Below, piece after piece: positions 1,904 through 23,648 of a DNA stretch of 42,716 nucleotides. Location of the stretch: contig CAMMBX010000003.1 of assembly GCA_946494345.1 (NCBI GenBank), positions 1-42,716 of the forward strand, written 5' to 3'. Positions within the stretch are counted from its first letter, which is position 1; every line of letters starts with the position of its first letter. The DNA comes from an uncultured Mycoplasmatota bacterium. GTDB taxonomy: Bacteria; Bacillota_I; Bacilli_A; RF39; UBA660. Below the pieces are notes generated by a model that saw nothing but the letters and a program-made list of their open reading frames with translations, made no database searches and had not been told where the DNA came from. Made by a program: the position numbers and the translations under genes.

Positions 1904-1917
1904 GAGGAGCGTTGGTT

Positions 1918-3756: not shown

Positions 3757-3772
3757 TGTTAGGAGAAGTACA

Positions 3773-4555
3773 ATGAAGAAAAAAATGATAATTGCATTGA
3801 GTATATTAATTGTTATTGTTGCAATTGCTTTAGTTTTCGTGTATTATAAAGTTAACTTCAGAACAAGTGATTTTGCTGTTTTGGATGAAACTGATAAGAT
3901 AGAGGATGCTAAGCAATATGGTGATGAGGTTGTAGGATGGCTTAGAGTTGAAGGTACTAATATTGATTTGCCTTTAATAAAGATAAACGAAGATACAGAT
4001 GTTTATAACGATGCCTACGATTTTGCCTGGACTAATTCTATTCCTGATGGTACAGGTAATCGTCCTGCCTATATTTCTCATAATGTTAGAAATGTGTCTC
4101 GCAATCCTATAGTTGGCGATGATACAATGACAAGATTTGAACAACTGATGTCATTTATTTATCCTGACTTTATTAAAGATAATCAGTTTATCGAGTTCAC
4201 AGATAGTGAAGGCGCTACTAGTTTATATAGAATTTATGCTGTTGCATTATTAGAAGATGATCAGAATGCTTCTTTTAGCGATACTTATACTGATGAAGAA
4301 CAAAGAAGGTATATTAAGAAAGCTAAAAGAGAAAGCATGTATGATATAGATGTTGATGTTAATGAAGATGATTTAATGTTGACGTTATTTACTTGCACTA
4401 GGTTTTATGGTGCATATACTAGCTATTCTTTTAGAGTTGATGCTAGAAAGTTAAGGGAAGGTGAGGATAAAATATACGCAAAAGTAGAGACTAACAAGAA
4501 TTATGAAAAAATAAAGGAAAGGATGGAAGAAGGTGAAAATAATGAAGAAGTATAA
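3773..4555 (+). CDS. Sortase, class B-like
   Basis: N-terminal TM, GWLRVEGTNIDLPL, catalytic His (AYISHN), TLFTCTRF Cys motif and downstream Arg (YSFRVDARK). RBS AGGAG before ATG 3773. Confidence 0.88.
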   Translation: MKKKMIIALSILIVIVAIALVFVYYKVNFRTSDFAVLDETDKIEDAKQYGDEVVGWLRVEGTNIDLPLIKINEDTDVYNDAYDFAWTNSIPDGTGNRPAYISHNVRNVSRNPIVGDDTMTRFEQLMSFIYPDFIKDNQFIEFTDSEGATSLYRIYAVALLEDDQNASFSDTYTDEEQRRYIKKAKRESMYDIDVDVNEDDLMLTLFTCTRFYGAYTSYSFRVDARKLREGEDKIYAKVETNKNYEKIKERMEEGENNEEV

Positions 4556-7256
4556 AATTATATTAGCAGTAGTTGTAATTGGTCTTTGTGCTACTTTTGG
4601 AGTTTTAGCTAATACAACTTCAGTTGATGCTGCTAATAATGAATGTTCTACGGGTTATACTAAGAAAACTTATATAAATAAGATTGGGTATGAGATTTCT
4701 GGCAATACTGTATCTTTTACTGGTGCTAAAGGATTAATGTATTCAGTAAGTTATGATTCTAGTGAAGTGAGAAATCATATTGATAATAGTGGAAATTTCT
4801 CAATTACTGTTCCAGATGAGTATGCAAGTGGAAAAATTGTCGTTACATTTTATCTTGATGAAGATGATGGTGTATGTGATGGTGGTATAGAAGTTGGAGG
4901 TATGGAATTTTATCTTGATGAGGCTTCTTATAACCAATTATATAACGATAGTTTATGTGCGAATTATCGTAGTAGATGGTCTAATAATAAGACTATGAGA
5001 GAGGCAGTTCCATATTGTTTTACTGAATACGTATCTATACAATATTCTTATAATGATGTAAGTAGTTGGGTTAATGATGCAGAAAGACTTTATAATTTAC
5101 AACAACATGGTAGTAGTGCGATTGTTCAAGATCCTTCTTATAAAAATGTTGATGATGTAGAAAATACTGAGAAATTAGTTTGTGATGCTTTTAGTAATAA
5201 TAATTATGAAACTATGCATAAATATAGTCATATGCAAACAAATACAGTTAATAATTGTACAACTACTTGTAAAGAGGAAGTTGAAGTAAACTTTAGTGAT
5301 CCTGTGGCAACACAAGCTGGATTATGTTTCCAATATTTAATAGAGATTAAATCTAAAGTAACTTGTGATAGTATTTATACAGCTCCTATGCCTAGTAGAC
5401 CTGGTGTTTGTGTACCTACAGCTTTTTGTGAATATAGTGCTAGTTCTACAAGTGACAAAGGTGGTCCTAGTGAGGATTTTGATGAGTGTGTTAATCAATG
5501 TGATGGTGGTGAATATACTCAAAAGTGTATAGATTCATGCTATACTAAAGTTTATGGAAAAGATAATACTGATACTGTTACACAAACTGCTTTTGGTGAA
5601 GTTGGTAATTCTATATTAACATTTGATCTTAATTCTACTATGTTTGATGGAACAGATAATGCTAAATTACTTGCTAATGGATGTATAGATCCTAAAAATG
5701 CTCCTTATTCTCAAGCTGCTGATTTATATAATCAACATCAAAGAGATCCTGGTGGTTATTATGAAATAGTAAATGGTAGAACAGTATGGAAAAAGGACAA
5801 TAATTCTGCTTGTCCTAGTGATATTGGACAATACTATTTTAGAAGTGTTGATGCTACTTTAAATACAATGCATGAGCTTCGTGGAGATTATTCACAAGGT
5901 GCTGGAAATAAAACATATAGAGCTAATGGAGAAGGAATTCTTTATAGATATTTAAGAAATAATCATGAAGATGTTTGTACTGATGATTGTACATGGATTA
6001 ACAATTGTAGTTCTAATACAGTATTAACAGAGTATCTAGCTGAACAACAATATCAACAAGCTTTAGCTGAATACAATAGTAAAAAGGCTGCTTGTGAATC
6101 TGGTACTGCTGTTTGTAGTAATGAAACTACTGATTATAAGATAGTTGTTGATAATATTGATACAAATACTAGTAATGGTGATGATAAAGAAGATTTCACA
6201 TCTTCACAAAAATTAAATAGCACTAATGTTACAGGAGCTTTTCCTGATATGGTTATTTTAACTGATGGAAGTTGTGAAGATGGACAAAGTGATCCATGGA
6301 ATTATCACAATATTATTACATTCCCTGGTACTTGGGTAAATAATAAGACAGGTCAAACTGTTCATTCAATGGATCCAGGACATGAAGATTTCTATACTTA
6401 TGTTGGTAATGAATATTGTACTAAACTAAATTCTGTTCCTATTAATACTGCATGGTATGATTGGAAAGTTAATCAAAATGGTGATCAGGGTGCTTTAACT
6501 GATTCACGGAAAAATCAAATTAGTAATAATATTGATATGAATATCAATGGTCATATTGATAATTATGGTTACTTTGGTTGGGATTTTGATGTTAGTTGTT
6601 TCTATGCTATAGGATCTCCTGAGGAAAGTTGTCCTCCAACTGATCCAAATTTCCCTGATTGTGAAGGTACTCCTACTCCGGATGATCCTGTTCCAGATCC
6701 TGATGGTCCAGGTGGTGATCCAGGGGATTCTCCAGTAAATGAATATGAATTTAGATCAGTTGCACTTGATAATGTTTTCCCATCTAGTACTGATGAAGAA
6801 AGAGAAATTGGATTTAACTGGACTTGTGCTGCTACTAACTTGGAAAATACTGATTATCTAATTCAACCAGTGACTGTTATGAATAATATTCAAGCTTTAG
6901 GTGATAGTATTTATGATGGTGAAGAATATTTGGATTATCATGTTAGACTAACTCCTGAAACAATGAGAAAAGTAAGAAATTATAATGATGATTATGATAG
7001 TTATACTGAACCAACTAGTGATAATAGTAATGAAGTGTTAACAGCTGGTAATAAGAAAACAGCAGGTATTACTGTTTATCGTAGTTATTTACTTCATAAA
7101 GTTCTTAATAGTAATGAATTATTAAGAAGTGGTGTTATTGGATGTAATAATGAAGAGAATGGAAGTTGTCCTAGAGGAACTGCTGCTATTGATACTACTA
7201 CAAGTTGTTATAATGAATATATGGCACAATCTGCTGTATTGAAAGGAGCTAATTAA
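4542..7256 (+). CDS. Large Cys-rich secreted protein with Pro/Asp/Gly-rich linker
   Basis: Signal peptide; about 30 Cys in the mature part; linker TPTPDDPVPDPDGPGGDPGDSP; no C-terminal sorting signal. Start overlaps the sortase 3' end. Confidence 0.75.
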   Translation: MKKYKIILAVVVIGLCATFGVLANTTSVDAANNECSTGYTKKTYINKIGYEISGNTVSFTGAKGLMYSVSYDSSEVRNHIDNSGNFSITVPDEYASGKIVVTFYLDEDDGVCDGGIEVGGMEFYLDEASYNQLYNDSLCANYRSRWSNNKTMREAVPYCFTEYVSIQYSYNDVSSWVNDAERLYNLQQHGSSAIVQDPSYKNVDDVENTEKLVCDAFSNNNYETMHKYSHMQTNTVNNCTTTCKEEVEVNFSDPVATQAGLCFQYLIEIKSKVTCDSIYTAPMPSRPGVCVPTAFCEYSASSTSDKGGPSEDFDECVNQCDGGEYTQKCIDSCYTKVYGKDNTDTVTQTAFGEVGNSILTFDLNSTMFDGTDNAKLLANGCIDPKNAPYSQAADLYNQHQRDPGGYYEIVNGRTVWKKDNNSACPSDIGQYYFRSVDATLNTMHELRGDYSQGAGNKTYRANGEGILYRYLRNNHEDVCTDDCTWINNCSSNTVLTEYLAEQQYQQALAEYNSKKAACESGTAVCSNETTDYKIVVDNIDTNTSNGDDKEDFTSSQKLNSTNVTGAFPDMVILTDGSCEDGQSDPWNYHNIITFPGTWVNNKTGQTVHSMDPGHEDFYTYVGNEYCTKLNSVPINTAWYDWKVNQNGDQGALTDSRKNQISNNIDMNINGHIDNYGYFGWDFDVSCFYAIGSPEESCPPTDPNFPDCEGTPTPDDPVPDPDGPGGDPGDSPVNEYEFRSVALDNVFPSSTDEEREIGFNWTCAATNLENTDYLIQPVTVMNNIQALGDSIYDGEEYLDYHVRLTPETMRKVRNYNDDYDSYTEPTSDNSNEVLTAGNKKTAGITVYRSYLLHKVLNSNELLRSGVIGCNNEENGSCPRGTAAIDTTTSCYNEYMAQSAVLKGAN

Positions 7257-7258
7257 TT

Positions 7259-7720
7259 ATGAGTAAAGGTATGTTAATTGTTGGTATTATCCTTTTAGCT
7301 ATTATTACTTTTGGGGTTGTTAATATAGTTCAAAATTATCAAACTGGTAATGAGCTAGATTACTATTTATTAAGAGAAACGACTGAAGCGGCAATGACTG
7401 ATGCAGTAGACGTTGGTTATTACCGCTTGAGCGGTCTACTTAGAATAGATAAAGAAAAATTTGTAGAGAGTTTTGTTAGACGTTTTTCTGAGAATGTTTC
7501 TAATAGTCGTACTTATGATATTGGCTTTTATGATATTAATGAAACACCACCTAAAGTTAGTGTTTTAGTTAAATCAGAAACTGCTGCTAGTATTAATGGT
7601 GAATCTTTAACTTTATCTAATAAAATTGATGTAATATTAGAGTCTAAATATCATGAAAATCAATATGTAACAAAAATGACTAGAGCTGGACAACTTGATT
7701 ATAGTGATGTTGATAGATAA
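7259..7720 (+). CDS. TadE-like / minor pseudopilin-like protein (DUF5411-like)
   Basis: N-terminal TM then 'YYLLRETTEAAMTDAVD', with an extracytoplasmic C-terminus. Position in Tad module. Confidence 0.5.
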   Translation: MSKGMLIVGIILLAIITFGVVNIVQNYQTGNELDYYLLRETTEAAMTDAVDVGYYRLSGLLRIDKEKFVESFVRRFSENVSNSRTYDIGFYDINETPPKVSVLVKSETAASINGESLTLSNKIDVILESKYHENQYVTKMTRAGQLDYSDVDR

Positions 7721-7741
7721 AAAGAATGAGGAGGATGTTTG

Positions 7742-8566
7742 ATGAATAATTTAGTGATTGGAATAAAAAAATTCTTAACTAATAAAAATACTGTTACTGT
7801 TGTTGGTGTTATTCTTGCAATTGTAATCCTTTATGTTGGATATAATATGCGAATTAATCAGGCAATAACACCTGTTACTGTTCCTTATGCTACAGAAACT
7901 ATAAAGGCTAGAACACAAATAACTGAGGATATGATAAGTACTATGGAAATTCCTCAATCAATGGTAACTGATGATATAATTACAAATAGTGCTGATGTTA
8001 TAGATATGTATGCAAATGGAGATAGTGTTATACCTGAAGGTAGTTTATTTTATACGAGATGTGTAGTGTCTCGAGATCAATTACCTGATAGTATAATTTT
8101 AAATTATCCTAAGGGATATGTTTTATATAACTTAGATGTTGATATGGCTAGTACATATAGTAACTCTATTTATCCAGATAATTATATTGATATTTATTTG
8201 AAAGTTCAAAATGCTGAAGGTAATGAAAATGGAGTTATTGCTGAAGATAGAATCATGGTTGGTAAACTATTATCTAATGTTAAAGTTTTAGCTGTATTCG
8301 ATAGTAATGGTAATAATGTTTTTGCTGACCTTGAAGAAAAAACTGAGCCTGCCCAAATAATCTTTGCGGTACCTGAAGAGTATCATATCTTACTTCGTAA
8401 AGCTAGTTTCTTAAGAGCTTATGAATCTGAGATTATTCCTGTTCCTACTGCAGAGTCTTTGGAAGATGAACCAGGAGATGTAACTTTATCTAGTGAGGAT
8501 TTAAGAAACTTTATTAATAATGTTACTGCTATGACAGAAGAAGATTTATCTTATACACAACAATAA
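7742..8566 (+). CDS. CpaB/RcpC-like SAF-domain protein
   Basis: TM followed by SAF-like 'VPYATETIKARTQITEDMISTMEIPQ'. RBS GAGGAGG before ATG 7742. Directly upstream of CpaF-like gene. Confidence 0.75.
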   Translation: MNNLVIGIKKFLTNKNTVTVVGVILAIVILYVGYNMRINQAITPVTVPYATETIKARTQITEDMISTMEIPQSMVTDDIITNSADVIDMYANGDSVIPEGSLFYTRCVVSRDQLPDSIILNYPKGYVLYNLDVDMASTYSNSIYPDNYIDIYLKVQNAEGNENGVIAEDRIMVGKLLSNVKVLAVFDSNGNNVFADLEEKTEPAQIIFAVPEEYHILLRKASFLRAYESEIIPVPTAESLEDEPGDVTLSSEDLRNFINNVTAMTEEDLSYTQQ

Positions 8567-8587
8567 AAAGAAAAGGGGTATGATTTT

Positions 8588-9814
8588 ATGAATGATTCCA
8601 TTTTTGATAAGTTGGATTTTGGACTTTTTGAACCATTAATTAAAGATGATGATATAACTGATATTTCTTATTGTAATCACGGACAAATTTGGATTCGTTC
8701 TTTAACCCAAGGTTCTAAAAGAGTAGAAATTGAAGGGCTAAATGATGCTTTTGTAGAGAAGTTAGCCTTTCAATGTTCTAATGTTATGGGAACTACATTT
8801 AATAATGCTAAACCATTTTTGGATGCTGAATCTACAGAACTTCGTCTTAACTTTGTTCATGATTCTATTGCTACTAACGGTATTGCAGTAGTTATTCGTA
8901 AAACACCAGCTAAGATTAGGTTATCTAGAGAAAAGTTACTTAAAGAAGATTATTTTACTGCTAACATTCATGACATTTTAATGAAATGTGTTGAAGGACA
9001 TTGTAATATTATGGTTAGTGGTGAGACTGGTTCTGGTAAGACTGAGTTTGTTAAATATTTGGCCAGTCATACTAAAGAAGATGAAAAGATTATTACAATT
9101 GAAGATACTTTGGAACTTCACTTAGATAAAATCTTTCCACATCGAGATATCGTAGCGATGAAAACAAATAACGTTGCCAGTTATTCTGATGTATTAGTTA
9201 CTTGTATGAGACAAAACCCAAAATGGATTTTATTATCAGAGGTACGTAGTGCTGAAGCAGTTACAGCTGTTCGTAACTCAATATCATCAGGACATAACAT
9301 TTTGTCAACAATTCATGCTGATAAAGCAAGTGCTATTCCTTATCGTATGTATTCACTTCTTGAAAGTGATATTGATGTGGATCAGTTCTTAACAACAATT
9401 TATCGTTATATTCAATTAGGAGTTCATATTAAAGCTTATTATAGTAAAGAATATGGTCAGTTTCACCGTGAAGTTGATGAGGTTGTTGAGTTTTATGTTG
9501 ATGATGATAATAAACCTCAGTCTCATATTCTTTATCAGAAGACTTTTGGTAAGGCTCCTGTTCAAAATATGCCTACTAAACATTTAAAAGAGTATTTAGA
9601 GAATCAAAATATCTTTATTGATAATCTATTTACTAAGGGGGATTCAATGAATGCAGTTAATAATGAAGTTAATAATGAAGTTAATAATATTGTTACACCT
9701 AGTGTGCAACAATCTACGGTTAATGTGGTAGAATCTCCTAATTTTGCTAATACTGTTAATACTGTTAATCAAGCGCCACAGCCTAAGGCTCCATTTCCTA
9801 CTGAGATAGTTTAA
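8588..9814 (+). CDS. CpaF/TadA (VirB11-superfamily) secretion ATPase
   Basis: Walker A GETGSGKTE, IITIEDTLEL, and 'LVTCMRQNPKWILLSEVRSAEA' typical of CpaF/VirB11 ATPases. Asn/Val-rich C-terminal tail. Confidence 0.92.
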   Translation: MNDSIFDKLDFGLFEPLIKDDDITDISYCNHGQIWIRSLTQGSKRVEIEGLNDAFVEKLAFQCSNVMGTTFNNAKPFLDAESTELRLNFVHDSIATNGIAVVIRKTPAKIRLSREKLLKEDYFTANIHDILMKCVEGHCNIMVSGETGSGKTEFVKYLASHTKEDEKIITIEDTLELHLDKIFPHRDIVAMKTNNVASYSDVLVTCMRQNPKWILLSEVRSAEAVTAVRNSISSGHNILSTIHADKASAIPYRMYSLLESDIDVDQFLTTIYRYIQLGVHIKAYYSKEYGQFHREVDEVVEFYVDDDNKPQSHILYQKTFGKAPVQNMPTKHLKEYLENQNIFIDNLFTKGDSMNAVNNEVNNEVNNIVTPSVQQSTVNVVESPNFANTVNTVNQAPQPKAPFPTEIV

Positions 9815-9829
9815 GAGAGGAGGAATTTC

Positions 9830-10723
9830 ATGGTACTTTTTTTACTATTAATAATTGCTATTGTTATTATTTTGTATAGAAATTATAAAGGACAAAATGT
9901 TTCTAAATATATTACTGAACAAGTTCAGGCAGTATATGATAAGTTTGCACCTTATTCTTATAAAGTAGTAAGGGAGAAAACAAAACAGTTGGGTCAAGAA
10001 TATACAGCAAGGCAATATTTAATTCAAATAGTTATAATGGGTGGCTTTGCAGGTATTGTAACGTATATGTACTTTTATAACTTAATAGTTTCAATAATTT
10101 ATGTTGTTATTGCTATAGCTTTTATTCCTTATTTATCTTTTTTAAGATGTAAAAGGGTATATAGTGAATTTATATTTGAACAAATACAAGTTTATACTAC
10201 TAATACTATTATGGAATTTGCTACGACACAAAGTTTTGTTAAATCTCTAGAAGGCGTTAGAGATTCTGGTATTTTGGAAGATCCAGTACTTTCTGATGTT
10301 AATAAGATGATTGATATGGCTTATGAAGAAGGGTCAATTGATGGGGCCTTAAACTTTATGAGTGATAAATATCCTTATTACATAGTAAAAAATATGCATC
10401 AATTGTTTTTACAAATAACTAAAGAAGGTGCTCAAGATACGGGAGAGAGTTTGGAAAATATGCAACTTGATATTGATACTCTTGTTGAAAGTGTTTATCG
10501 TGATAGAATGGATAGAGCTAATTTCCATAAGAAATTTTTACAATATGGTATTATGTTATTCCTTTTAGTTATGTTAATTCAATATATGCTTGGTAGTGAA
10601 AGTTATATTGAACTTATTAAGAGTATTTGGGTTCAACTTGTTCTTCATTTTATTATTATTTTTAATAGTTACTTCTTATTAAAAGGAGAAAAATATTATA
10701 ATGAGAATGTGGGGGTTGAATAG
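9830..10723 (+). CDS. TadB-like (T2SS-F family) membrane platform protein
   Basis: TM topology, and gene order directly after the CpaF-like gene and before the TadC-like gene. Confidence 0.7.
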   Translation: MVLFLLLIIAIVIILYRNYKGQNVSKYITEQVQAVYDKFAPYSYKVVREKTKQLGQEYTARQYLIQIVIMGGFAGIVTYMYFYNLIVSIIYVVIAIAFIPYLSFLRCKRVYSEFIFEQIQVYTTNTIMEFATTQSFVKSLEGVRDSGILEDPVLSDVNKMIDMAYEEGSIDGALNFMSDKYPYYIVKNMHQLFLQITKEGAQDTGESLENMQLDIDTLVESVYRDRMDRANFHKKFLQYGIMLFLLVMLIQYMLGSESYIELIKSIWVQLVLHFIIIFNSYFLLKGEKYYNENVGVE

Positions 10724-10725
10724 TT

Positions 10726-11505
10726 ATGGAAATAGTATTTGTTGCAGTTATTATTTTGTTTATTTTGATTTATAATAGAACAATTGATAAAAATAAATTT
10801 ATTAATGACAATAAAAAATATTTTGAAATATTAAGAGAAGATGATTATGACTTTCTTGTTTATGCAAAATATGGTGATAGTGCTTCTCCTAATGTTTTGT
10901 TTCAAAAAAGAATAACTTATGCAATTGGAGCATTCTTTATATTTATGTTTTTGTTTATTGATGATGTTAGTTTAATAAATATTATACTTGCTTGTTTAAT
11001 TGCAGTTTTCATATTCAAATCACCATATATGCAATTAAAAAAATATTATAAAGCTCATTTGCATCAAATCGATATAATGTTGCCATACTATTTAAAGAGT
11101 TTGGAAATATTAATTCAGCATTATACTGTTCCTGTAGCGATAGGTAAAAGTATAAATGATGCTCCTGATATTTTTAAACCAGGACTTCGGGAATTAATTG
11201 AAAAAATTAATTCAGGAGACTCTAGTATTACACCTTATATGGATTTTGCTAATACTTATCCAGTTAGAGATTCTATGAGAATGATGAGACTTTTGTATCG
11301 TCTTGGTCTTGGTGGTCAAGAAAAGAAACAAGAAAGGCTTTTAATGTTTTCTCGTACTGTTTCTAACTTACAAGCGAAAGCAAGAGAGACTAAGTATAAA
11401 GAAAGACTTGATCATATGGGAAATCAGACTATGATTATGCTAGTTGTTACTGGTGTTAGTGTTATGATTGTCATATTAGCGTCAATGTTAACTATGATTG
11501 CATAA
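10726..11505 (+). CDS. TadC-like (T2SS-F family) membrane platform protein
   Basis: TM pattern, paired with TadB-like gene. 'ALG...RLYRLGLGGQEKK...ARETKYKERLDHMGNQTMIMLVVTGVSVMIVILASML' resembles a TadC C-terminus. Confidence 0.7.
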   Translation: MEIVFVAVIILFILIYNRTIDKNKFINDNKKYFEILREDDYDFLVYAKYGDSASPNVLFQKRITYAIGAFFIFMFLFIDDVSLINIILACLIAVFIFKSPYMQLKKYYKAHLHQIDIMLPYYLKSLEILIQHYTVPVAIGKSINDAPDIFKPGLRELIEKINSGDSSITPYMDFANTYPVRDSMRMMRLLYRLGLGGQEKKQERLLMFSRTVSNLQAKARETKYKERLDHMGNQTMIMLVVTGVSVMIVILASMLTMIA

Positions 11506-11513
11506 AAAATAGG

Positions 11514-11541
11514 TTACAAAACAGTAATTATTTGATATAAT
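11514..11541 (+). promoter_or_regulatory. Putative sigma-A promoter for the pilin-like ORF (TTACAA-16-TATAAT)
   Basis: TTACAA 11514-11519; perfect TATAAT 11536-11541; RBS GAAAGGAGAGG and ATG downstream. Confidence 0.55.
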
Positions 11542-11578
11542 TAATTTTGTAAGATAATATGAAAGGAGAGGGTATTTC

Positions 11579-11737
11579 ATGAAAGAAGCGACTGGAGAGT
11601 TAAATATGACTGTAGTAACTATTGTACTTATTGGAGTTATTGCAGCTTTCTTTGCAATATTCTGGCCTAATGTTATTCAACCAGCTATTGAAGATAATTG
11701 GGAAAGTAATGTTGGTACTATTGATGATATAAATTAA
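11579..11737 (+). CDS. 52-aa single-TM pilin-like protein, candidate major Flp-type pilin (absent from ORF track)
   Basis: MKEATGELNMTVVTIVLIGVIAAFFAIFWPNVIQPAIEDNWESNVGTIDDIN*. Strong RBS GAAAGGAG; lies between TadC-like and TadE-like genes. Confidence 0.65.
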   Translation: MKEATGELNMTVVTIVLIGVIAAFFAIFWPNVIQPAIEDNWESNVGTIDDIN

Positions 11738-11762
11738 TATTAGTTTGAGGATGTGATTAATA

Positions 11763-12215
11763 ATGAGAGATGCGATAGGTCAAGTTTTTGCTGTACAAAT
11801 TATTTTAGCTTTTGTTTTGTTAATTAATGGTTATATGGCTTATTCTGTTAATTATACTAGAGCATTTCGAGTTAAAAATCAAATAGTTAATATTATTGAA
11901 CAGTATGAGGGACCTTATAATGATGAAGCGATTGATAAAATAAATGATTATATTGATCAGATGACTTATGAGGTTCCTCCTAGACTTACTCAAGACTTTT
12001 TAGATGATTATGCTAATGCTAGTGAAAAAAGTTGTCAGAATGGATGGTGCTATGTAGCTCATGATGTCTCTATTAGTGATGGGGATGGAGAAAGGAATGG
12101 TAAGTATTATTCAGTAGTAACCTTTGTTAATATTAATATTCCTGTAATAAACAATATAGTAGGCTTAGGTGATTTCTTAAGAGTTGTAGGTGAAACTAGA
12201 ACGATTTATCAATAA
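11763..12215 (+). CDS. TadE/TadF-like pseudopilin-type protein
   Basis: N-terminal 'MRDAIGQVFAVQIILAFVLLINGYMAYSVNYTRAFRVKNQIVNIIEQYEG'; single TM and extracytoplasmic domain with a Cys pair. Confidence 0.6.
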   Translation: MRDAIGQVFAVQIILAFVLLINGYMAYSVNYTRAFRVKNQIVNIIEQYEGPYNDEAIDKINDYIDQMTYEVPPRLTQDFLDDYANASEKSCQNGWCYVAHDVSISDGDGERNGKYYSVVTFVNINIPVINNIVGLGDFLRVVGETRTIYQ

Positions 12216-12230
12216 AAAGGAAGTGATAGG

Positions 12231-13211
12231 GTGAACGTAATTATTGCTAACGAAGCGAAAGGAATGCTATCGACTTTAGATATTGATGTTATTAAAAGTG
12301 TTGATGGAGTTCATACTGCAGATGAAATTGTTGATATGTTCAAAAACTTCTTTTATGCTAGAATGATTTTAGATATTACAGCAATTAAAGATTATGAAGA
12401 TATTACTAATATTCAAAAAATATCTATTGGACTTGATGCTGATAAAATCATTCTTTTACTTCCTAATAATGAAACATCTACATCTAGTAGTTATTTATCT
12501 AAGATTATTTCTATGGGAATATATAACTTTACAACTACTGTTGATGGAGTTAAATATTTTTTAGAACATCCTAATACTTATAAAGATGTTGCACATATTC
12601 AGCAACTAAATGATTTATCTAGTACTATTAATGATAAAGTAATTGCAGGATCTAGAATAATAGGCATTAAAAATGTTACGGACCATGCAGGAAGTACAAC
12701 TCTTATTTATATGTTAAAAAAAGAACTTGAACAAACTTATGGAATGAGTGTTGTGGCTATTGAAGTTAATCGTCATGATTTTGCCTATTTTAATAGTAAT
12801 AATATGATTTCTGTTGATGATGAACATCTTATGACAGAGATTGTTAAACATAAAGATGTAGCAATTATTTTAATTGATTTGAATGATTCTAGTAATGAGG
12901 GTGCTTGTAATGATGTTTTATACTTAATAGAGCCTTCTAGTATTAGATTAAATAAATTAATGAGAAGAAATAGAAGAGTTTTTGAAGAATTAAAGGGTAA
13001 GAAGATTATTCTTAATATGAGTTTACTTTCTAACAGTGATATAATGGATTTTGAGTATGAAGGTAAGACTAAGGTCTTTTATAATATACCACCTCTTAAT
13101 GATAGAGTAAAAAATCCGGTATTAAGTGATTTTCTATCTAAGATAGGACTTATTAATAAGCCTAAAGAAAAAGAGAGCAGTGGAAAAATATTTGGACTAT
13201 TTAAACGGTAA
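12231..13211 (+). CDS. TadZ/CpaE-like ParA-family protein with degenerate P-loop
   Basis: GTG start with RBS. Receiver-like N-terminus, then 'GIKNVTDHAGSTTLIYMLKKELEQTYGMSVVAIEVNR', which resembles an MRP/ParA deviant Walker region. Confidence 0.6.
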   Translation: MNVIIANEAKGMLSTLDIDVIKSVDGVHTADEIVDMFKNFFYARMILDITAIKDYEDITNIQKISIGLDADKIILLLPNNETSTSSSYLSKIISMGIYNFTTTVDGVKYFLEHPNTYKDVAHIQQLNDLSSTINDKVIAGSRIIGIKNVTDHAGSTTLIYMLKKELEQTYGMSVVAIEVNRHDFAYFNSNNMISVDDEHLMTEIVKHKDVAIILIDLNDSSNEGACNDVLYLIEPSSIRLNKLMRRNRRVFEELKGKKIILNMSLLSNSDIMDFEYEGKTKVFYNIPPLNDRVKNPVLSDFLSKIGLINKPKEKESSGKIFGLFKR

Positions 13212-13214
13212 TAA

Positions 13215-13243
13215 TTGACAAATTTTCATAATTTGTATATTAT
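13215..13243 (+). promoter_or_regulatory. Putative sigma-A promoter for T4SS module (TTGACA-17-TATTAT)
   Basis: Consensus -35 at 13215-13220 and TATTAT at 13238-13243, upstream of GTGGAGG RBS and the gene at 13268. Confidence 0.6.
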
Positions 13244-13267
13244 TATTGTAAGTGGAGGAGATTATAT

Positions 13268-13636
13268 ATGAAGAGTTTTATGTTAATGAATTTAGTACAA
13301 GTTTTAGATACAACTGTTAATGTGGATGGACCTTGTCATGGTTTTGGCTTCTTAGTTAGAATTGTTAAAAATGGGCTATTTCCTATTTTACAGATTGGTA
13401 TTCCTATTATCTTAATAGTTCTTGGTACTTTGGATTTAGGAAAAGCAGTTATATCTTCTGATGATAAAGCTGTTAAAGAAGCTCAATCTAAGTTAATTAA
13501 AAGATGTGTTTATGCAATATTAGTATTCTTTATTGTAACATTAATTAGTTTATTATTTACAATGATTGGTAATATTGCTGGTGATGCTGCTCCTGGATTA
13601 ACAAATTGGAGTAATTGTTGGAATAATCCTGAATAA
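13268..13636 (+). CDS. VirB2/TrbC-like T4SS pilin-family protein (paralog 1)
   Basis: Two TMs: 'LFPILQIGIPIILIVLGTLDLGKAVISSDDKAVKEAQSKLIKRCVYAILVFFIVTLISLLF'. Homologous to the next two genes. Confidence 0.7.
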   Translation: MKSFMLMNLVQVLDTTVNVDGPCHGFGFLVRIVKNGLFPILQIGIPIILIVLGTLDLGKAVISSDDKAVKEAQSKLIKRCVYAILVFFIVTLISLLFTMIGNIAGDAAPGLTNWSNCWNNPE

Positions 13637-13650
13637 TAGAAAATTATGAG

Positions 13651-13674
13651 TAAATAGCAACTAGTTGCTATTTA
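13651..13674. terminator. 24-bp perfect palindrome/hairpin after VirB2-like paralog 1
   Basis: TAAATAGCAA CTAG TTGCTATTTA; lacks a clean U-tract. Confidence 0.5.
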
Positions 13675-13697
13675 TTTGTATTTATAGAAAGGTTTAT

Positions 13698-14048
13698 ATG
13701 TATTTTTTTCAAGTATTAGATGAAATAACAGTAAATGTTGAAAGTAATTGTTATGGTTTTGATGCTATAGTAAGAGTTATTAAAGAGGGTTTATTTCCAG
13801 TATTACAAATAGCAATACCAATTATTTTAATAGTTCTTTGTACTTTTGATTTAGGTAAAGCAGTTATAAGTAATGATGAAAAAGAAAATAAGAAAACTAT
13901 TAAGAGGTTAATTAGAAGACTTGTTTATGCTATAGTATTATTTTTCTTTGTTACAGTTATTAATTTAGCTTTTACTATGATAAGTGATATTACAGAAAAT
14001 GAAGATTTGCTTAGATGGAGCGAATGTTGGAATGATCCTAGTGGATGA
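13698..14048 (+). CDS. VirB2/TrbC-like T4SS pilin-family protein (paralog 2)
   Basis: ATG 13698 after AGAAAGG. 'LFPVLQIAIPIILIVLCTFDLGKAVISNDEKENKKTIKRLIRRLVYAIVLFFFVTVINLAF'. Confidence 0.7.
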   Translation: MYFFQVLDEITVNVESNCYGFDAIVRVIKEGLFPVLQIAIPIILIVLCTFDLGKAVISNDEKENKKTIKRLIRRLVYAIVLFFFVTVINLAFTMISDITENEDLLRWSECWNDPSG

Positions 14049-14049
14049 T

Positions 14050-14077
14050 AAAAATAGTAATTGTAATTGCTATTTTT
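14050..14077. terminator. Hairpin after VirB2-like paralog 2
   Basis: AAAAATAGTAATT gt AATTGCTATTTTT (one U-G wobble), followed by ATTTTC. Confidence 0.5.
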
Positions 14078-14124
14078 ATTTTCTAATGATATACTTTATT
14101 TATGATGATGGGAGTGACTTAACG

Positions 14125-15354
14125 ATGAAAAGTAAGCTTTTTAATTTTATCTTTTTTTGCTTTTTAACTCTTCTATTCTTTAGTGTTAAAGATGTACATG
14201 CTTATACACCTGTTGAAGATGATTGCTTAGATAAAGGCACTTGTATTTTAGTTTGTAATTATAATAATGTATCTAAAGGCAGTAATAATAGAAAATTTAC
14301 AAGAAATATTTCTTTATATTATTATTTGGATAGTGAAGAATGGAAACTTTATTGGGAAGGGTCTTCAGCACCAAATTCAGGTGGTTCTAAGTTTTCGGTA
14401 CATACTAAAGGGCCTTCAACATTAGGTCATATATTTTCCAATAATGGTGAAAATGTTTATTTTAGTAGTCAACCAGATGCTTCTAAATTTAAATGTTTTG
14501 ATCACGCTTATTTAGATTATAGTAATCTTTTAAATTTTAATGAAGTTTGTTTTGATAATAATGGAAAAACATGTAAAAGCAAATATAATGGGGTAGGTAC
14601 TGCTTTCAAAGCTAATGACTATATAAGTGATGAACAGGATTATGATTTTGAAGATGATTTAACAAATTATGTTTCACATTGGAGTTTTGGGGATATAAGT
14701 TGTGATGATATTTTTAATAACTCTGTTGATATTAATAGTACAGATTACGTTAGTTCTAAGTTTGATAATGATTTAAAAACTAATTATTTACATGGTTATG
14801 ATGTTCCTGATTTTATTGCAAATAATGATATTTTAATTAATTCAAAAGAACAGGCAAAAACTGCTGTTGAAAATAAAAAAGCAGAATGTTTAAATCAAAT
14901 TCAACAATCAGTAACTAGTGGAGAAATAACTACTGATGAAGCGAATAGAAGACAAGAAATAGTTAATGGTATTAATTCAGATCAAGTAGCTGAAAATTTT
15001 CAAAATGCTGCTATAAAAACAAGAGACGAAAACATGACTATTAATAATTGGAATCAAACTGAAGTGAAATGTGAAGATATCTTTAAGTTTGATGAAGAAG
15101 GTTCTGTAGGATGGATTTTACAAACTTTATTTAACTATATTAAAGTTATAGGTCCTATTGCTGTAATTTTACTTAGTTCACTTGATTTTATTAAAGCAGT
15201 TGTAGGTACTGATGAGAAAGCAATGAAAGAAGCTCAATCTAAACTTATTATTAGATTAGTAGCAGCGGCAGCATTGTTCTTGATACCTACATTGTTACAA
15301 CTTTTATTAAATATAATAAATATAGCTATTCAACCAGAATGTTTTTTACGATAA
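14125..15354 (+). CDS. Secreted N-terminal domain fused to C-terminal VirB2-like two-TM domain (paralog 3)
   Basis: Signal peptide from ATG 14125 (RBS GGGAG). C-terminus 'IGPIAVILLSSLDFIKAVVGTDEKAMKEAQSKLIIRLVAAAALFLIPTLLQLLL' matches paralogs 1-2. Confidence 0.7.
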   Translation: MKSKLFNFIFFCFLTLLFFSVKDVHAYTPVEDDCLDKGTCILVCNYNNVSKGSNNRKFTRNISLYYYLDSEEWKLYWEGSSAPNSGGSKFSVHTKGPSTLGHIFSNNGENVYFSSQPDASKFKCFDHAYLDYSNLLNFNEVCFDNNGKTCKSKYNGVGTAFKANDYISDEQDYDFEDDLTNYVSHWSFGDISCDDIFNNSVDINSTDYVSSKFDNDLKTNYLHGYDVPDFIANNDILINSKEQAKTAVENKKAECLNQIQQSVTSGEITTDEANRRQEIVNGINSDQVAENFQNAAIKTRDENMTINNWNQTEVKCEDIFKFDEEGSVGWILQTLFNYIKVIGPIAVILLSSLDFIKAVVGTDEKAMKEAQSKLIIRLVAAAALFLIPTLLQLLLNIINIAIQPECFLR

Positions 15355-15362
15355 TAACTGTT

Positions 15363-15394
15363 AAATAAATAGCAATATAAATTGCTATTTATTT
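15363..15394. terminator. 14-bp perfect-stem hairpin after VirB2-like paralog 3
   Basis: AAATAAATAGCAAT ATAA ATTGCTATTTATTT, followed by T-rich sequence. Confidence 0.6.
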
Positions 15395-15448
15395 TGATAT
15401 TTGTTACAATATAATAGAGTGATTATTTCGAAAGAGAAGTGATAATAA

Positions 15449-17494
15449 ATGAACAATCCCAGTGGTATTATCAATTTTACAAGATTCATATTTGTTGGTA
15501 TAGAGTCTGTGGGTTATTTTCTTGTTAGTGGTGCGTATAATATATTTTTTACAGTTGCTAATGCACAACTTTTTAGTGGTGATATAATTAATACTTTTTA
15601 TAGTAGGATACAGTTAATACTTGCTGTTTTAATGACTTTTAAAATTGCTATTACACTTTTAAATATTATTATTAATCCCGATTCATTTAAAGATAAAGAA
15701 AAGGGTCCTGGTAAGTTGATAACAAGGATAGTGGTTTCTTTAGTATTACTTACATTGATAGTACCTATTCCTAATATACCAAAGAGTAGTAATCCTTTAA
15801 ATGAACAGATTAGAAGTAATGGTATTTTATTTGGATTTTTATATCAATTTCAAAATAGTGTTATGGACGATAATATTTTAGGTAAATTAATATTAGGAAG
15901 TAATGTTGGTAGTGTTGATGATGCTGATAATATAAGTAATCTTGGGGGTACTTTAGCAACAACGGTTGCTAAAACTTTTATAACACCGACTTTGAGCGTT
16001 GATGATGATGAAGTTAGTGGTACTGAACTGAATAAGAGTCAAGTAGCGTGTCCTTCAGCACTTGAGGAATATGGTTATAATAATTCTAATTTGCATTATT
16101 CTACACTTATAGATAATATAAATGAAACATGTGATTCTTCTGGTATGGGAGAAGTTTATGTATTTAATTATATTCCTTTTGGTGGCTTAATATGTTCCCT
16201 TATAATGACATTCATTATTTTAGGATTTACTATAGATGTTGCAGTTAGGGCTATTAAACTAGCAGTATTAAGACTTATTGCTCCTGTTCCAATAATTTCT
16301 TATATTATGCCAGGATCTGAGAAAAATGGTGCATTTGGCAATTGGGTGAAATCATTATCTTCTACTTATATAGATTTATTTTTAAGAATTGCAGTTATTT
16401 ATTTTGGGGCTTATATTATTTATATAATAGCTTTCAGTGGAGAAGATGGTATAAATATTTGGCAGGGTTCTTCTAGTTTTACTGTTTCACTTCTTTCAAC
16501 TGTATTTATAATAATTGGTGTTTTGATATTTATGAAGGAAGCTCCTAAATTCTTTAAAGATATGCTTGGAATAAAAGGAGATGGAGGTAACTTTTTCCGG
16601 GGTATTGGTACAATGCTTGGAGCTGCTGCCTTGACTGGTGGACTTGCTGGTTCTGTTGCTACTGGTGTAAGAGCTGGATGGCAAGAAGGTGCTGAGTATA
16701 AAGGACGTACTGCGGGACTTAGGCGTGTGCTTGGTGCTGGAGTAGCAGGATTAACTAGTGGTGTTGGTGGTGCTGTTGTAGGAGCTGGTGCTCTTATGTC
16801 TGCTGATAAGAAACAGGCAGGTGCTGTATTTTCTGCTATGCAAAAGAGAAATGCTATGAGAGCAGCTCATTCTACTTTACTTGGTCGTGCTACGAGTGGT
16901 GCTTATGGTATGTTTACTGGTAGATCTTTAGCTGAGAGAGATCAACAAATTCTTGATGCAACTAATGATGCAAAAAAAGGTATATCTTCATGGAACGAAG
17001 CAGCTACGGATGAAGCTTTAAAACAAACTGGTGCTGATGATTATGGTATTACAACTATAAATGGAAAGAAATATGGCTTTAATTGGGATACTTTAGAGGC
17101 TGCTATGAAAGGTGCTAATCAAGATGGATATTTCTATTATGGAAATAATAGATTTAATCTTACTGATTTTTCTAAGACAAGGACTGATGAGATCAAAAAG
17201 TCTCAAACATCTCGATTTGTTGCTAGACAATATAATAGAAAAACTGGACATTTTGATAACCCTCGTCTTGAGACAGAGTGGAAACTAGCTGCACCAAAAA
17301 TTGAGAAAGCTAATTTGGATTATAGTGACTTTAAAGCTACATATGTTGATGATGATGGAAATTCATATGAATTACCATTTCTTGATCCATCTTCAAAAGG
17401 TGCTATGTTAGGTAAAGCTGATTCACAGATTGAGCAATATACAAATAATATGAAACATGTAAAACATATGGCCAATCATAATCAATCTAAATAG
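15449..17494 (+). CDS. VirB6/TrbL-like polytopic T4SS channel protein with long cytoplasmic tail
   Basis: Multiple TMs, Gly/Ala-rich region and charged C-terminus. Sits directly upstream of PrgI/VirB3- and VirB4-like genes. Confidence 0.7.
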   Translation: MNNPSGIINFTRFIFVGIESVGYFLVSGAYNIFFTVANAQLFSGDIINTFYSRIQLILAVLMTFKIAITLLNIIINPDSFKDKEKGPGKLITRIVVSLVLLTLIVPIPNIPKSSNPLNEQIRSNGILFGFLYQFQNSVMDDNILGKLILGSNVGSVDDADNISNLGGTLATTVAKTFITPTLSVDDDEVSGTELNKSQVACPSALEEYGYNNSNLHYSTLIDNINETCDSSGMGEVYVFNYIPFGGLICSLIMTFIILGFTIDVAVRAIKLAVLRLIAPVPIISYIMPGSEKNGAFGNWVKSLSSTYIDLFLRIAVIYFGAYIIYIIAFSGEDGINIWQGSSSFTVSLLSTVFIIIGVLIFMKEAPKFFKDMLGIKGDGGNFFRGIGTMLGAAALTGGLAGSVATGVRAGWQEGAEYKGRTAGLRRVLGAGVAGLTSGVGGAVVGAGALMSADKKQAGAVFSAMQKRNAMRAAHSTLLGRATSGAYGMFTGRSLAERDQQILDATNDAKKGISSWNEAATDEALKQTGADDYGITTINGKKYGFNWDTLEAAMKGANQDGYFYYGNNRFNLTDFSKTRTDEIKKSQTSRFVARQYNRKTGHFDNPRLETEWKLAAPKIEKANLDYSDFKATYVDDDGNSYELPFLDPSSKGAMLGKADSQIEQYTNNMKHVKHMANHNQSK

Positions 17495-17517
17495 GGTGAT
17501 AAGGAGTGTGATAATAG

Positions 17518-17832
17518 ATGAATGAGTATTTAATACCTGCTAATACGAAAAATGGTACTTTGATTCTTGGACTTTTTAAGCCTTTCGACTTGGTGTTGTT
17601 AGGTACAGGAATTTTAATTTCATTGGTACTTTTGATGAGTTTTCCAATGAATGCTACTTGGCAAGTTGTAGTTGTTGTTAGTCCGGGATTGCTTTGTGCT
17701 TTTCTTGTTGTTCCTGTTCCTCATTATCATAATATTTTAACAATAATTGTAGAGGCTTATAACTTCTTTACAAATAGAAGAAGATATATTTGGAAAGGTT
17801 GGTGTGTTAAAGATGTCAAAGACGTTAAGTAG
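17518..17832 (+). CDS. PrgI/VirB3-like protein
   Basis: 'YLIPANTKNGTLILGLFKPFDLVLLG..' and two TMs. Position directly before VirB4 components. Confidence 0.75.
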   Translation: MNEYLIPANTKNGTLILGLFKPFDLVLLGTGILISLVLLMSFPMNATWQVVVVVSPGLLCAFLVVPVPHYHNILTIIVEAYNFFTNRRRYIWKGWCVKDVKDVK

Positions 17833-18361
17833 TCAATATACTGAAGATTGGCTTCCTATTACAGGTATTCAGAATGGTTATATAATTTGTGAAGGTAAAC
17901 AGAAAGTTACAGGAGTAAAAATAGTTCCTCGTAATATATTTATCCTTGATCAACAAGCTCAAGATAATGTCTTGATTAGCCTTAAAAACTTTTATAATAT
18001 GATTGATTTTGAGTTTTGGCTTGTAGTTGCTGATAGACCAGTTGATATTTCTGTTTATATGTCACAATTACAACTTTTATATAACGATTCTACATCTCCT
18101 GCAATTAGAAAAATAATACTACAAGATATTGATAAAGGTAATACTTTTATGAATAATAATATCGTAGATACTGAGTATTTTATTCTATTTAAAGATACTA
18201 GTGAAGATGTTTTACAAAAAAGAGTTCGTCTTTTAATAAATGGTCTTGCAGGATGTGGTTTAAATGCTTCACAAGTTAGTAATGATGACCTTAGAATAAT
18301 TATGGAAAACTTCTTAAATGGAGGAGTTTCTACTGAGTTTGGGACGGTGATGCCAGTATGA
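17813..18361 (+). CDS. VirB4/TraC-like N-terminal domain encoded as a separate protein
   Basis: 'DWLPITGIQNGYIICEGKQKVTGVKIVPRNIF' resembles VirB4 N-termini. No ATPase motifs; ATGA overlap with the next ORF. Confidence 0.6.
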   Translation: MSKTLSSQYTEDWLPITGIQNGYIICEGKQKVTGVKIVPRNIFILDQQAQDNVLISLKNFYNMIDFEFWLVVADRPVDISVYMSQLQLLYNDSTSPAIRKIILQDIDKGNTFMNNNIVDTEYFILFKDTSEDVLQKRVRLLINGLAGCGLNASQVSNDDLRIIMENFLNGGVSTEFGTVMPV

Positions 18362-20148
18362 GTATAAGTATAAAAAGTCAATTAGCTCCTAAAGGGTTAC
18401 AATTTAATCCAAGTGATTTCTTTATTAGTGATAAGTATGCAACTATTCTTTCAGTTATTTCTTATCCACGTTATATTGCTCCCGGTTATCTTTCTACCTT
18501 AACGTCTATGAGTGGAATAAAGATTGTAATTAAACATATCCCTGTTCCTTTTGCAACTATGTCTAAGATGATTAATAAACAAGTAGCTGATTTACGTGAA
18601 AAGTATCGTCAGGAGAAGGATCAAACAATGAAAGAGAGAATTAGACAAGATGCGGAAAGTCTTGAAGCTTTTGTTTCTATGCTTGCATCAAGTCAGTCTC
18701 GTATCTTTGACTTTCAAATGCATATTATGATTAATGCTGATACTAGAGAAGATCTTGAATTAAAAAAAGTTAATGTTAAAAACTATTTGGATGCGATGGA
18801 GTTAAGGGCGATATCTTTACGTTTTGAACAAGAGAAAGTATTGAAAAGTATTTTACCAATCTTTCCTAGTCAAGATATAGAAGAGAGAATTGGTACTCCT
18901 ATTCCAACTCCTACTATTGCAGCGATGTATCCTTTTATCTTTGATAGTATTAAAGATCCAGGACTTTCTGTATTACTTGGTGTTGATTTTTCTGGAGGAG
19001 TTATACTATTTAATCAATTCTTATATCAAACTAGAAAAGAAAATAATAGAAATAATGCCAATATGATTATTTTGGGTACTTCTGGTTCTGGTAAAAGTAC
19101 GGCTGCTAAACTATTACTTAGATCACATATTAGAAATGGTTGTCAAATAATTGCAATAGACCCTGAAAATGAACTTGAAGAGATGACTAGAACCTTTGGT
19201 GGAGATATTATAGATATTGGTAAGGGTGGAGAATTTGGTATGATCAATCCCTTAGAAGTTATAATAGACGCTGATGATGAAGAGATAAGTCAAGGTTTAG
19301 GTTATACTGTTTTAACTAGAACACTTCAATCTTTAAGGGCTTTTATGAAATATTATGATCCATCTATTGAAGAAGATGTACTTAATATGTTTAGTGAGAT
19401 TGTTCAAGATACTTATAAACGTTTTGGTATAGATTTTAATACTGATTTTTCTAAATTTACTTCTGCTGACTATCCAACATTTTCTGATGTTTATGCTACA
19501 GTTAGAGGTAGACTTATGGCTTTAACTGAACAAACAAGAGAAAAAGATATTATTCAAAGATTAGAGCTTAAAATTAGGCCTTTAATTAAAGAGCTAAAAT
19601 TCTATTTTGATGGTAAGACTACTATTACTGCTGATAGTGATTTTATGGTATTTAATATTAAAGAATTTATGAATTCTGATACTAATATTAGAAATGCTTT
19701 GTTCTTTAATATCTTAAAATATGCATGGGGTCTTTGTCTTGATCCTTCTGTAAATACAATTTTAATGGTAGATGAAGCTCATGTATTACTTGGTACTAAT
19801 AATGAACAAGGAGCTGACTTCCTTGCTCAAGTACAAAGGCGTGCTCGTAAATATAATACAGGTACTATTATAATTACTCAGCAGCCAAGTGATTTTTCTA
19901 GTCCTGCTATTATTACTCAAGGTAAAGCGATATTTGATAACTCATCATATTATTTAGTTATGGGACTTAGAAAGCAAGCGGTTGAGGATTTATCATTACT
20001 TATTGATTTAAACGAAAATGAAAAAGATAGTATTAAACGTTATTCTCAAGGAGAAGCTTTGTTTGTTTGTGGAAATAGACGTATGAGAATTAATGTAGTA
20101 GTTACTCAAGAAGAATTAGAATCATTTGGAAGTGGTGGAGGATTTTAA
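18358..20148 (+). CDS. VirB4-like T4SS ATPase
   Basis: Walker A GTSGSGKST; 'IIAIDPENELEEM'; 'TILMVDEAHVLL'; 'TIIITQQPSDF'. Confidence 0.92.
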   Translation: MSISIKSQLAPKGLQFNPSDFFISDKYATILSVISYPRYIAPGYLSTLTSMSGIKIVIKHIPVPFATMSKMINKQVADLREKYRQEKDQTMKERIRQDAESLEAFVSMLASSQSRIFDFQMHIMINADTREDLELKKVNVKNYLDAMELRAISLRFEQEKVLKSILPIFPSQDIEERIGTPIPTPTIAAMYPFIFDSIKDPGLSVLLGVDFSGGVILFNQFLYQTRKENNRNNANMIILGTSGSGKSTAAKLLLRSHIRNGCQIIAIDPENELEEMTRTFGGDIIDIGKGGEFGMINPLEVIIDADDEEISQGLGYTVLTRTLQSLRAFMKYYDPSIEEDVLNMFSEIVQDTYKRFGIDFNTDFSKFTSADYPTFSDVYATVRGRLMALTEQTREKDIIQRLELKIRPLIKELKFYFDGKTTITADSDFMVFNIKEFMNSDTNIRNALFFNILKYAWGLCLDPSVNTILMVDEAHVLLGTNNEQGADFLAQVQRRARKYNTGTIIITQQPSDFSSPAIITQGKAIFDNSSYYLVMGLRKQAVEDLSLLIDLNENEKDSIKRYSQGEALFVCGNRRMRINVVVTQEELESFGSGGGF

Positions 20149-20188
20149 AATTAGTTAAACTTTAATTGAAGTAAGGTGGTGAAGTTAA

Positions 20189-22540: not shown

Positions 22541-22552
22541 GAGGAGAATACT

Positions 22553-23086
22553 ATGAAAAAAATAGAAAAAATAGAATTGGTGATAATAGTTATTTTGGTA
22601 GTAGTGTTTGGTGGTACTCTTATTTATTCAAGGCTTTTTGTAAATAATGCCGAAGAAAATAAAATAGATAATACAGTTATTGCTTTACAGGATGAAAATA
22701 GATTCTTTACAATTGATTCAGCGATTTCTAAATATATATCTTATGTAGCTAGTGGAGATACTGCTAATATTATTAAACTGCTTGATACTAATTTTGTTTC
22801 TAATAATAATATTACTTCTAATAACCTTTTTAATTATATAGAATCTTATGATACTAATTATGTTGGTAGTACTAGAGAAGTATATCAAGTTAGTTATAAT
22901 GATAATATTTATAAATATTATGTAAAAGTTAGATTGCTTAATGAAGATTTTGTTTCTTCTACTTTTGTTAAAGATACTTATTTTGAAGTTACAATAAATG
23001 AAAATAATTTAACCTTTGCAGTTGCTCCTATTTCTTCAGTTATGTATTCTAATAAAATAGAGGAGGCTGATTCTAATAATGATTAA
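22553..23086 (+). CDS. VirB8/TcpC-like single-TM protein (1)
   Basis: N-terminal TM and NTF2-like-sized extracytoplasmic domain (FFTIDSAISKYISYVASGDTANIIKLLD). Position in T4SS cluster. Confidence 0.45.
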   Translation: MKKIEKIELVIIVILVVVFGGTLIYSRLFVNNAEENKIDNTVIALQDENRFFTIDSAISKYISYVASGDTANIIKLLDTNFVSNNNITSNNLFNYIESYDTNYVGSTREVYQVSYNDNIYKYYVKVRLLNEDFVSSTFVKDTYFEVTINENNLTFAVAPISSVMYSNKIEEADSNND

Positions 23087-23549
23087 TAAAGTAAAAGTGA
23101 TTGTACTTATAATAATGATAGGCTTGTTTCTATTTCTAATTTTTAGTAATTTTCGAAATGTTAGTGATAGTATGAGAGAATTACCTAGTGAAGAAGAATT
23201 AAATGAATTTAATTCTGTTTCTTCTAAAAATGAAGTTAATACTTATGAAGTCAAAGATATTAGTAATGAACAGTTAGCGACTATATATTATTCTGACTTT
23301 AAAAATGAAGTGGTTAATTTTCCTGATGATATTTATAGTAAAATACGTAATAAGAGTGATATAACTTCTTCTGTTTTTGAAAGCTTTAGAAATGAACTTA
23401 TTAATAATTATTATAGTAATACAGTTTCTTCTTATAATTTTAGAAATACTACTAATGGTAAAATATTAGAAGTAACAAATAATTATAATCAAAAGATAAC
23501 ATTTTATATTGATTCAGTTTTAAATTACGAAATTGAGTTAACATTGTAA
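23079..23549 (+). CDS. VirB8/TcpC-like single-TM protein (2)
   Basis: N-terminal TM and small extracytoplasmic domain; overlaps the previous gene. Confidence 0.4.
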   Translation: MINKVKVIVLIIMIGLFLFLIFSNFRNVSDSMRELPSEEELNEFNSVSSKNEVNTYEVKDISNEQLATIYYSDFKNEVVNFPDDIYSKIRNKSDITSSVFESFRNELINNYYSNTVSSYNFRNTTNGKILEVTNNYNQKITFYIDSVLNYEIELTL

Positions 23550-23556
23550 AAATTTG

Positions 23557-23585
23557 TTTTCAAATTATAAAAATGTTGGTATAAT
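23557..23585 (+). promoter_or_regulatory. Putative promoter upstream of virD4-like gene (TTTTCA-17-TATAAT)
   Basis: TATAAT 23580-23585 with a 4/6 -35 match; an 11-bp direct repeat lies immediately downstream. Confidence 0.45.
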
Positions 23586-23590
23586 AAGCG

Positions 23591-23615
23591 TAGATTTTAA
23601 ACCTTAGATTTTAAA
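23591..23615. repeat. Two direct copies of TAGATTTTAAA (14-bp period) in virD4-like leader
   Basis: TAGATTTTAAA at 23591-23601 and 23605-23615. Confidence 0.8.
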
Positions 23616-23648
23616 TCAGTATAATGAGTATAAATGGAGGAGATTTTC

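Follow-up and report, generated by a model that had tools for sequence, protein, structure and literature searches.

A very small, overlooked gene of gut Bacilli whose product is probably the chief subunit of an atypical Tad-like surface filament

In the stretch of DNA analysed here (the window; 42,716 nucleotides from an uncultured Mycoplasmatota bacterium), a very small gene that had been overlooked lies at positions 11579–11737. It is conserved, together with its own promoter, throughout a family of gut Bacilli related to Candidatus Onthousia, and its 52-aa product is probably the chief component of an atypical Tad-like (type IVc-like) filament on the cell surface; the filament genes adjoin those of a type IV secretion machine. 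This role, the major pilus subunit of the original prediction, is the one best supported by size, transmembrane (TM) helix, N-terminus, paralogues, promoter and position, and the prediction is upheld in part. Judged from sequence, the following count against it: no curated family match, Glu at +1 and Asn at +3 of the putative mature protein, no Glu5, and weak homology of the TadB and TadC proteins. The gene and its upstream elements are as follows.

11514–11541, forward strand: promoter, with TTACAA (11514–11519), a 16-nt spacer and TATAAT (11536–11541); from the sequence and from conservation in genus and family
11547–11554, forward strand: likely transcript start region TTGTAAGA; from upstream alignment, the start being placed by its distance from the -10 element
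11561–11568, forward strand: ribosome-binding site (RBS) GAAAGGAG; from the sequence, conserved in orthologues
11579–11737 including the stop codon, forward strand: 52-aa pilin-like protein with the N-terminus MKEATGELNMT, a TM helix and an acidic tail; from the sequence, orthologue alignments and profiles

The open reading frame (ORF) runs from an ATG at 11579 to a stop codon ending at 11737; it encodes exactly the protein quoted in the original prediction. Its stated absence from the ORF track would fit a 60-aa cut-off, which a protein of 52 aa does not reach. Among 60 related genomes the gene was found in 32, including 29 of the 34 other genomes of the same genus. The 30 same-genus orthologues, the window copy counted in, align without gaps across the first 30 codons, and the ORF is conserved in this alignment together with the RBS, the start position and the promoter. 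Pooled pN/pS is 0.18 over codons 2–30, with plentiful synonymous change; split in two, the pooled and uncorrected values are 0.03 for codons 2–12, where variation is almost confined to synonymous positions, versus 0.27 for codons 13–30. The protein is under strong purifying selection, and it is near-certain that the ORF is a real gene.

By profile search, the pilin gene turns up in 161 of the 199 genomes of the family, spread over 106 of 124 genera. Outside the family, no convincing match was obtained in the 397 class genomes sampled; the few weak ones (E > 0.0005) mostly sit within long unrelated frames. GTDB species genomes were scanned as well and yielded 336 loci. Analysis was confined to the best 80 of them, which include records named Candidatus Onthousia, an uncultured genus of the class Bacilli which we take to belong to the GTDB order RF39. 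A reading as a mobile-element gene was rejected, the pilin having no match among plasmid and phage records.

The promoter TTACAA-16-TATAAT and the RBS are present upstream of the ORF as originally described, and the -10 element is moreover of the extended type (TGaTATAAT), a detail absent from that description. The arrangement TTACAA-N13-14-TGNTATAAT occurs once in the window versus a mean of 0.03 in shuffled sequence. Promoter and RBS could be aligned in every same-genus orthologue having sufficient upstream sequence, and the start region TTGTAAGA is kept in most of them, not all. In the best 80 of the 336 loci, the 100 nt upstream of each gene were compared: of 79 loci, 64 show TATAAT before the first pilin copy, 59 of them together with a -35 element (at least 4/6 positions) at 16–18 nt, while the same paired criterion is satisfied in 0 to 7 loci (0–10%) for eleven other genes of those loci. 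No other gene tested in these best 80 loci comes close to the pilin gene in promoter conservation, and the claim that the gene has its own promoter is borne out at the level of both the genus alignment and the family. Upstream of the TadC-like gene TATAAT is also frequent in these best 80 loci, mostly without a -35 element, and in the window it falls within the coding end of the TadB-like gene. Other genera mostly have TTGATA-17-TATAAT about 30 nt 5' of the pilin start codon. The promoter is absent from several loci whose matched copy resembles a second, tandem paralogue, which is consistent with one promoter per pilin cluster. From such a promoter within the operon, the pilin would be made in excess.

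Across 96 copies, the N-terminus MKEATGELNMT is nearly invariant: E3 and N9 do not vary, K2 is found in 95, A4 in 94 and E7 in 95 copies, and Gly6 is kept in 93, with Ser in the other three. It leads into one hydrophobic stretch of about 18–20 residues near residues 11–30, a predicted TM helix, followed by a variable C-terminal tail that is short and acidic in the genus of the window and longer and often Cys-rich in many others, with paired cysteines in the tails of many genera. The length is 52 aa here and 52–98 aa across the family, and in several genera the gene is duplicated in tandem, the second copy having a different tail that often ends in C-x-[WY]-K-G. Pilins usually have a helix conserved at the N-terminus, an exposed tail that varies, and paralogues; the near-invariant N-terminus, variable C-terminus and tandem paralogues seen in these alignments likewise suggest a pilin-like pattern. 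The protein would sit in the membrane with the acidic tail facing outwards and the short N-terminus on the inner side. A canonical Glu at +5 had been described as not evident, and this holds throughout: counted from Gly6, position +5 (residue 11) is Thr in 94 of 96 copies, so that the missing Glu5 is a property of the family and not peculiar to one genome, and +6 is Val, Leu or Ile in all 96.

The gene lies in a locus whose order in the best 80 of the 336 loci is conserved as DUF5411, CpaB-like, TadA, TadB-like, TadC-like, pilin, TadE-like and TadZ-like, continuing onward with VirB2-like proteins, VirB6, PrgI-like and VirB4; several of the Tad labels in this order were assigned by position only. 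The neighbours in the window are as follows.

7259–7720, forward strand: DUF5411 protein with a single N-terminal TM segment (PF17424, E=2.3e-50)
7739–8566, forward strand: CpaB/RcpC-like protein (TIGR03177 E=1.6e-8, RcpC E=5e-5, SAF E=0.012, all below cut-off)
8588–9814, forward strand: TadA/VirB11-type assembly ATPase (T2SSE E=4.7e-28)
9830–10723, forward strand: TadB-like platform protein, from position; homology to PilC is undetectable by sequence
10726–11505, forward strand: TadC-like platform protein, from position, an AlphaFold2 model (pLDDT 80.5) and Foldseek matches to GspF domains
11763–12215, forward strand: TadE-like protein, candidate minor pilin with the N-terminal motif MRDAIG, from alignments and an AlphaFold2 model
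12231–13211, forward strand: TadZ-like protein, from position; no family match

The placement of the pilin gene between TadC-like and TadE-like genes stands, and it recurs in nearly all of the best 80 of the 336 loci, but these labels are weaker than had been implied, the first having moderate fold support and the second drawing on position, N-terminal motif and predicted architecture. The TadC-like model matched the cytoplasmic domains of GspF proteins (EpsF, OutF) in Foldseek with a probability of 0.63–0.84 and a target TM-score of 0.57–0.67; since E > 1, the fold support is only moderate. Pfam gave no match for the TadB-like and TadC-like proteins, scanning 25–29 members of each against Pfam brought up neither a platform family nor TadE or Flp, and profile-profile comparison of the TadB-like and TadC-like proteins with each other and with the PilC of the genome returned nothing usable. 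The identity of TadA as a T2SSE ATPase is, by its profile match, certain; the TIGR03819 TadA-family and VirB11 models score equally on it (E about 1e-32), both below cut-off. For the TadE-like protein, AlphaFold2 predicts a helix at residues 2–47 followed by a small alpha/beta domain (pLDDT 89.9), a layout that is pilin-like in the model, and a Foldseek search with this model found no significant match among solved structures. TadE-like N-termini follow M-[KR]-[EDQ]-[ASTV]-x-[GAS], with Ala or Ser at position 6 in some copies, and share M-[KR]-[ED]-[AST]-x-G with the pilin; the DUF5411 protein begins with MKESYWG in many relatives. The module thus contains three small bitopic proteins with related N-termini. 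The TadA ATPase would extrude the pilin on the platform formed by TadB and TadC, and the TadE-like and DUF5411 proteins would serve as minor pilins.

Curated Flp and pilin models gave no match to the pilin above cut-off, and NCBIfam yielded nothing relevant. The best Pfam relative is archaeal Pilin_N (PF07790; 16.3 bits versus a gathering threshold of 25.2, E=0.018), which appears below threshold in seven of 29 pilin members (best E=0.0022); this similarity may be taken as a hint only. Against solved structures, the pilin profile scored better with ATP synthase b helices (E=0.013) than with fimbrial proteins (E=0.3), which indicates generic matches of TM helices. The G/FTLIE-type N-terminus of the N-methyl type IVa pilins (PF07963) is absent from the 52-aa protein.

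Flp pilins are all-helical proteins of 50–80 aa (PMC12075869) with E/D at +5 and Tyr at +6 (PMC3244431). Like Flp/Tad (type IVc) major pilins such as Flp1, the present protein is small (50–80 aa) with a single helix, has its gene in a tad locus alongside tadA, tadB, tadC and CpaB/RcpC- and TadE-like genes, and shows Gly at the -1 position of a putative leader that is short and hydrophilic. Unlike them, it has neither Glu/Asp at +5 nor Tyr at +6 (PMC3244431), its locus contains no TadV, its putative leader comprises just six residues, and no curated Flp model is matched. Because the +5/+6 definition fails and no model reaches its cut-off, we regard it as a Flp-like pilin variant and not as a member of the Flp family. 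Some Gram-positive tad-like loci, among them those of Clostridium kluyveri and C. cellulolyticum, have no recognisable prepilin (PMC3244431); these share with our locus the monoderm host and the lack of a canonical prepilin, but tadV is present there (PMC3244431). Genes of the kind described here may explain such Gram-positive loci seemingly without a pilin, since ORF callers and pilin predictors alike miss genes this short whose N-termini are non-canonical. The archaeal type IV pilins of PF07790 resemble the protein weakly, below threshold, over residues 5–28 and often lack Glu5 (PMC4471445), whereas the host here is bacterial and the score stays under the Pfam cut-off. The linear plasmids of Cutibacterium acnes (PMC5696575) likewise carry tad and VirB4-type conjugation genes on one element; in contrast, the present locus is conserved family-wide and is followed in the window by housekeeping genes. 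Literature searches combining RF39 with Tad pili or type IV secretion brought up no work on the system.

Subunits of bacterial type IV filaments are regarded as all but defined by Glu5 and by prepilin cleavage, and a family-wide gene of gut Bacilli that breaks the Glu5 rule, and perhaps the cleavage rule, offers a test of what a Tad machine needs of its subunit. If the MKEATG leader is removed after Gly6, the mature pilin would carry Glu at +1, Asn at +3 and Thr, not Glu, at +5. Six residues are the minimum leader length, which fits cleavage after Gly6, and Gly/Ser/Ala at position 6 would, as expected, fit a -1 residue; Glu at +1 and Asn at +3 are unusual for a pilin core and count against it. 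Reading Glu7 as the +5 residue was rejected, as it would require cleavage after Lys2, for which we know of no precedent.

No prepilin peptidase gene lies in the window, as originally stated; the genome, when searched, was nonetheless found to encode one PilD-type enzyme on contig C38. This A24 peptidase of about 255 aa has two CxxC pairs and lies directly 3' of a PilC gene. Elsewhere in the same genome there are seven canonical N-methyl pilins with FTLIE-type starts, evident PilD substrates, all of which keep Glu5 (FTLIE, FTMLE). The PilC–PilD pair and the seven N-methyl pilins, on other contigs, indicate that the genome has a further system of ordinary type, a type IV pilus or T2SS-like one. 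At least one prepilin peptidase was detected in 189 of 199 family genomes, mostly in single copy. An association of peptidase and pilin by co-occurrence was rejected, since the peptidase is about as common in pilin-negative as in pilin-positive family genomes. Nothing ties this peptidase to the pilin protein, because it lies beside PilC, has evident substrates of its own and is about equally common without the pilin; if the pilin is processed, an unlinked shared peptidase is the simplest route, because the genome and nearly all its relatives have one. The chance that the six-residue leader MKEATG is cut after Gly6 by this unlinked enzyme appears, on the sequence evidence, to be about even. There is a parallel in the Kil pilin of Myxococcus, which is probably processed by another, unlinked and still unknown peptidase (PMC12075869).

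The foremost alternative overlaps the major-pilin reading and differs in the processing step alone: the filament subunit would never be cleaved, and MKEATGELNMT, partly common to the TadE-like and DUF5411 proteins, would be a recognition tag by which the TadA/B/C-like machine picks its substrates. We hold this possible, if tentative. It would account for the polar residues at +1 and +3 and the missing Glu5, for conservation flanking Gly6 on either side with Ser at position 6 in some copies, and for the related MKE/MRD starts of the TadE-like and DUF5411 proteins; the locus without a peptidase gene and the six pilin-positive genomes without a detected peptidase also speak for it, two of the six being 97–98% complete, although this rate also fits incomplete assemblies. 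On the other hand, the peptidase is found in almost all genomes, Gly/Ser/Ala at position 6 resembles a -1 residue, and processing by a prepilin peptidase is described for type IV filament subunits (PMC10191384, PMC4471445). Glu5 is described as almost invariable in pilins, yet often absent from archaeal ones (PMC4471445).

The Tad-like and type IV secretion modules of the window are adjacent and co-directional (7259–25883), and VirB4, VirD4 and a TrbL-like VirB6 are clear assignments. Of the best 80 of the 336 loci, 47 have more than 8.5 kb downstream, and type IV secretion genes follow in 42 of these, with VirB6 in 42 and VirB4 in 41. This steady linkage raises the question of one joint machine, in which the TadA-like ATPase may double as the VirB11-type ATPase. 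The genome, only 71% complete, gave no match for a relaxase (PF03432). At 13268–15354, three consecutive genes share a similar two-helix domain (e.g., LQIGIPIILIVLGTLDLGKAVISSDDKAVKEAQSKLIKR); the second gives a weak T4SS_pilin match (E=0.037), the third is fused to a Cys-containing surface region, and together they form a candidate VirB2/TrbC-like family.

It is conceivable, but unlikely, that the 52-aa protein has a minor or accessory role in the membrane part of a machine combining Tad and type IV secretion, and that the main extracellular fibre, if any, is built from the VirB2/TrbC-like proteins (13268–14048). The downstream secretion genes in 42 of the 47 long loci among the best 80 of 336, the promoter-like site TTGACA-17-TATTAT proper to the gene at 13268–13636 and the equal TadA and VirB11 scores of the ATPase would agree with such a role. 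However, five long loci have the Tad-like module with no detected VirB4 or VirB6 downstream, the presence of two platform-like proteins beside TadE/CpaB-like ones suggests an assembly line for a type IV filament, and the B2a-like protein is matched in just 61 of these 80 loci, some of which are short. An extension of the uncleaved reading, in which the gene would represent a family-wide class of Glu5-less, uncleaved subunits bearing the MKEATGELNMT tag in a joint Tad/type IV secretion machine, appears doubtful. That 11579–11737 is a spurious ORF or an RNA leader element, as its shortness and its omission from annotation might suggest, is already refuted by the codon pattern, given a pN/pS of 0.18, an RBS and start conserved in 30 orthologues and family-wide protein-level conservation with synonymous change.

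Two minor observations concern the surroundings of the gene. Directly 5' of the Tad-like module, at 1912–7256, a sortase-like gene lies by large Ig-like and Cys-rich surface proteins, a block conserved in the genus. Around the pilin promoter, most genus members have an imperfect dyad, with TTACAAAA upstream and TTTTGTAA downstream of the -10 element, and TTGTAAG is found also 3' of the promoter-like site preceding 13268; these elements (11514–11554 and 13215–13256) are candidates for an operator or a common start-region motif.
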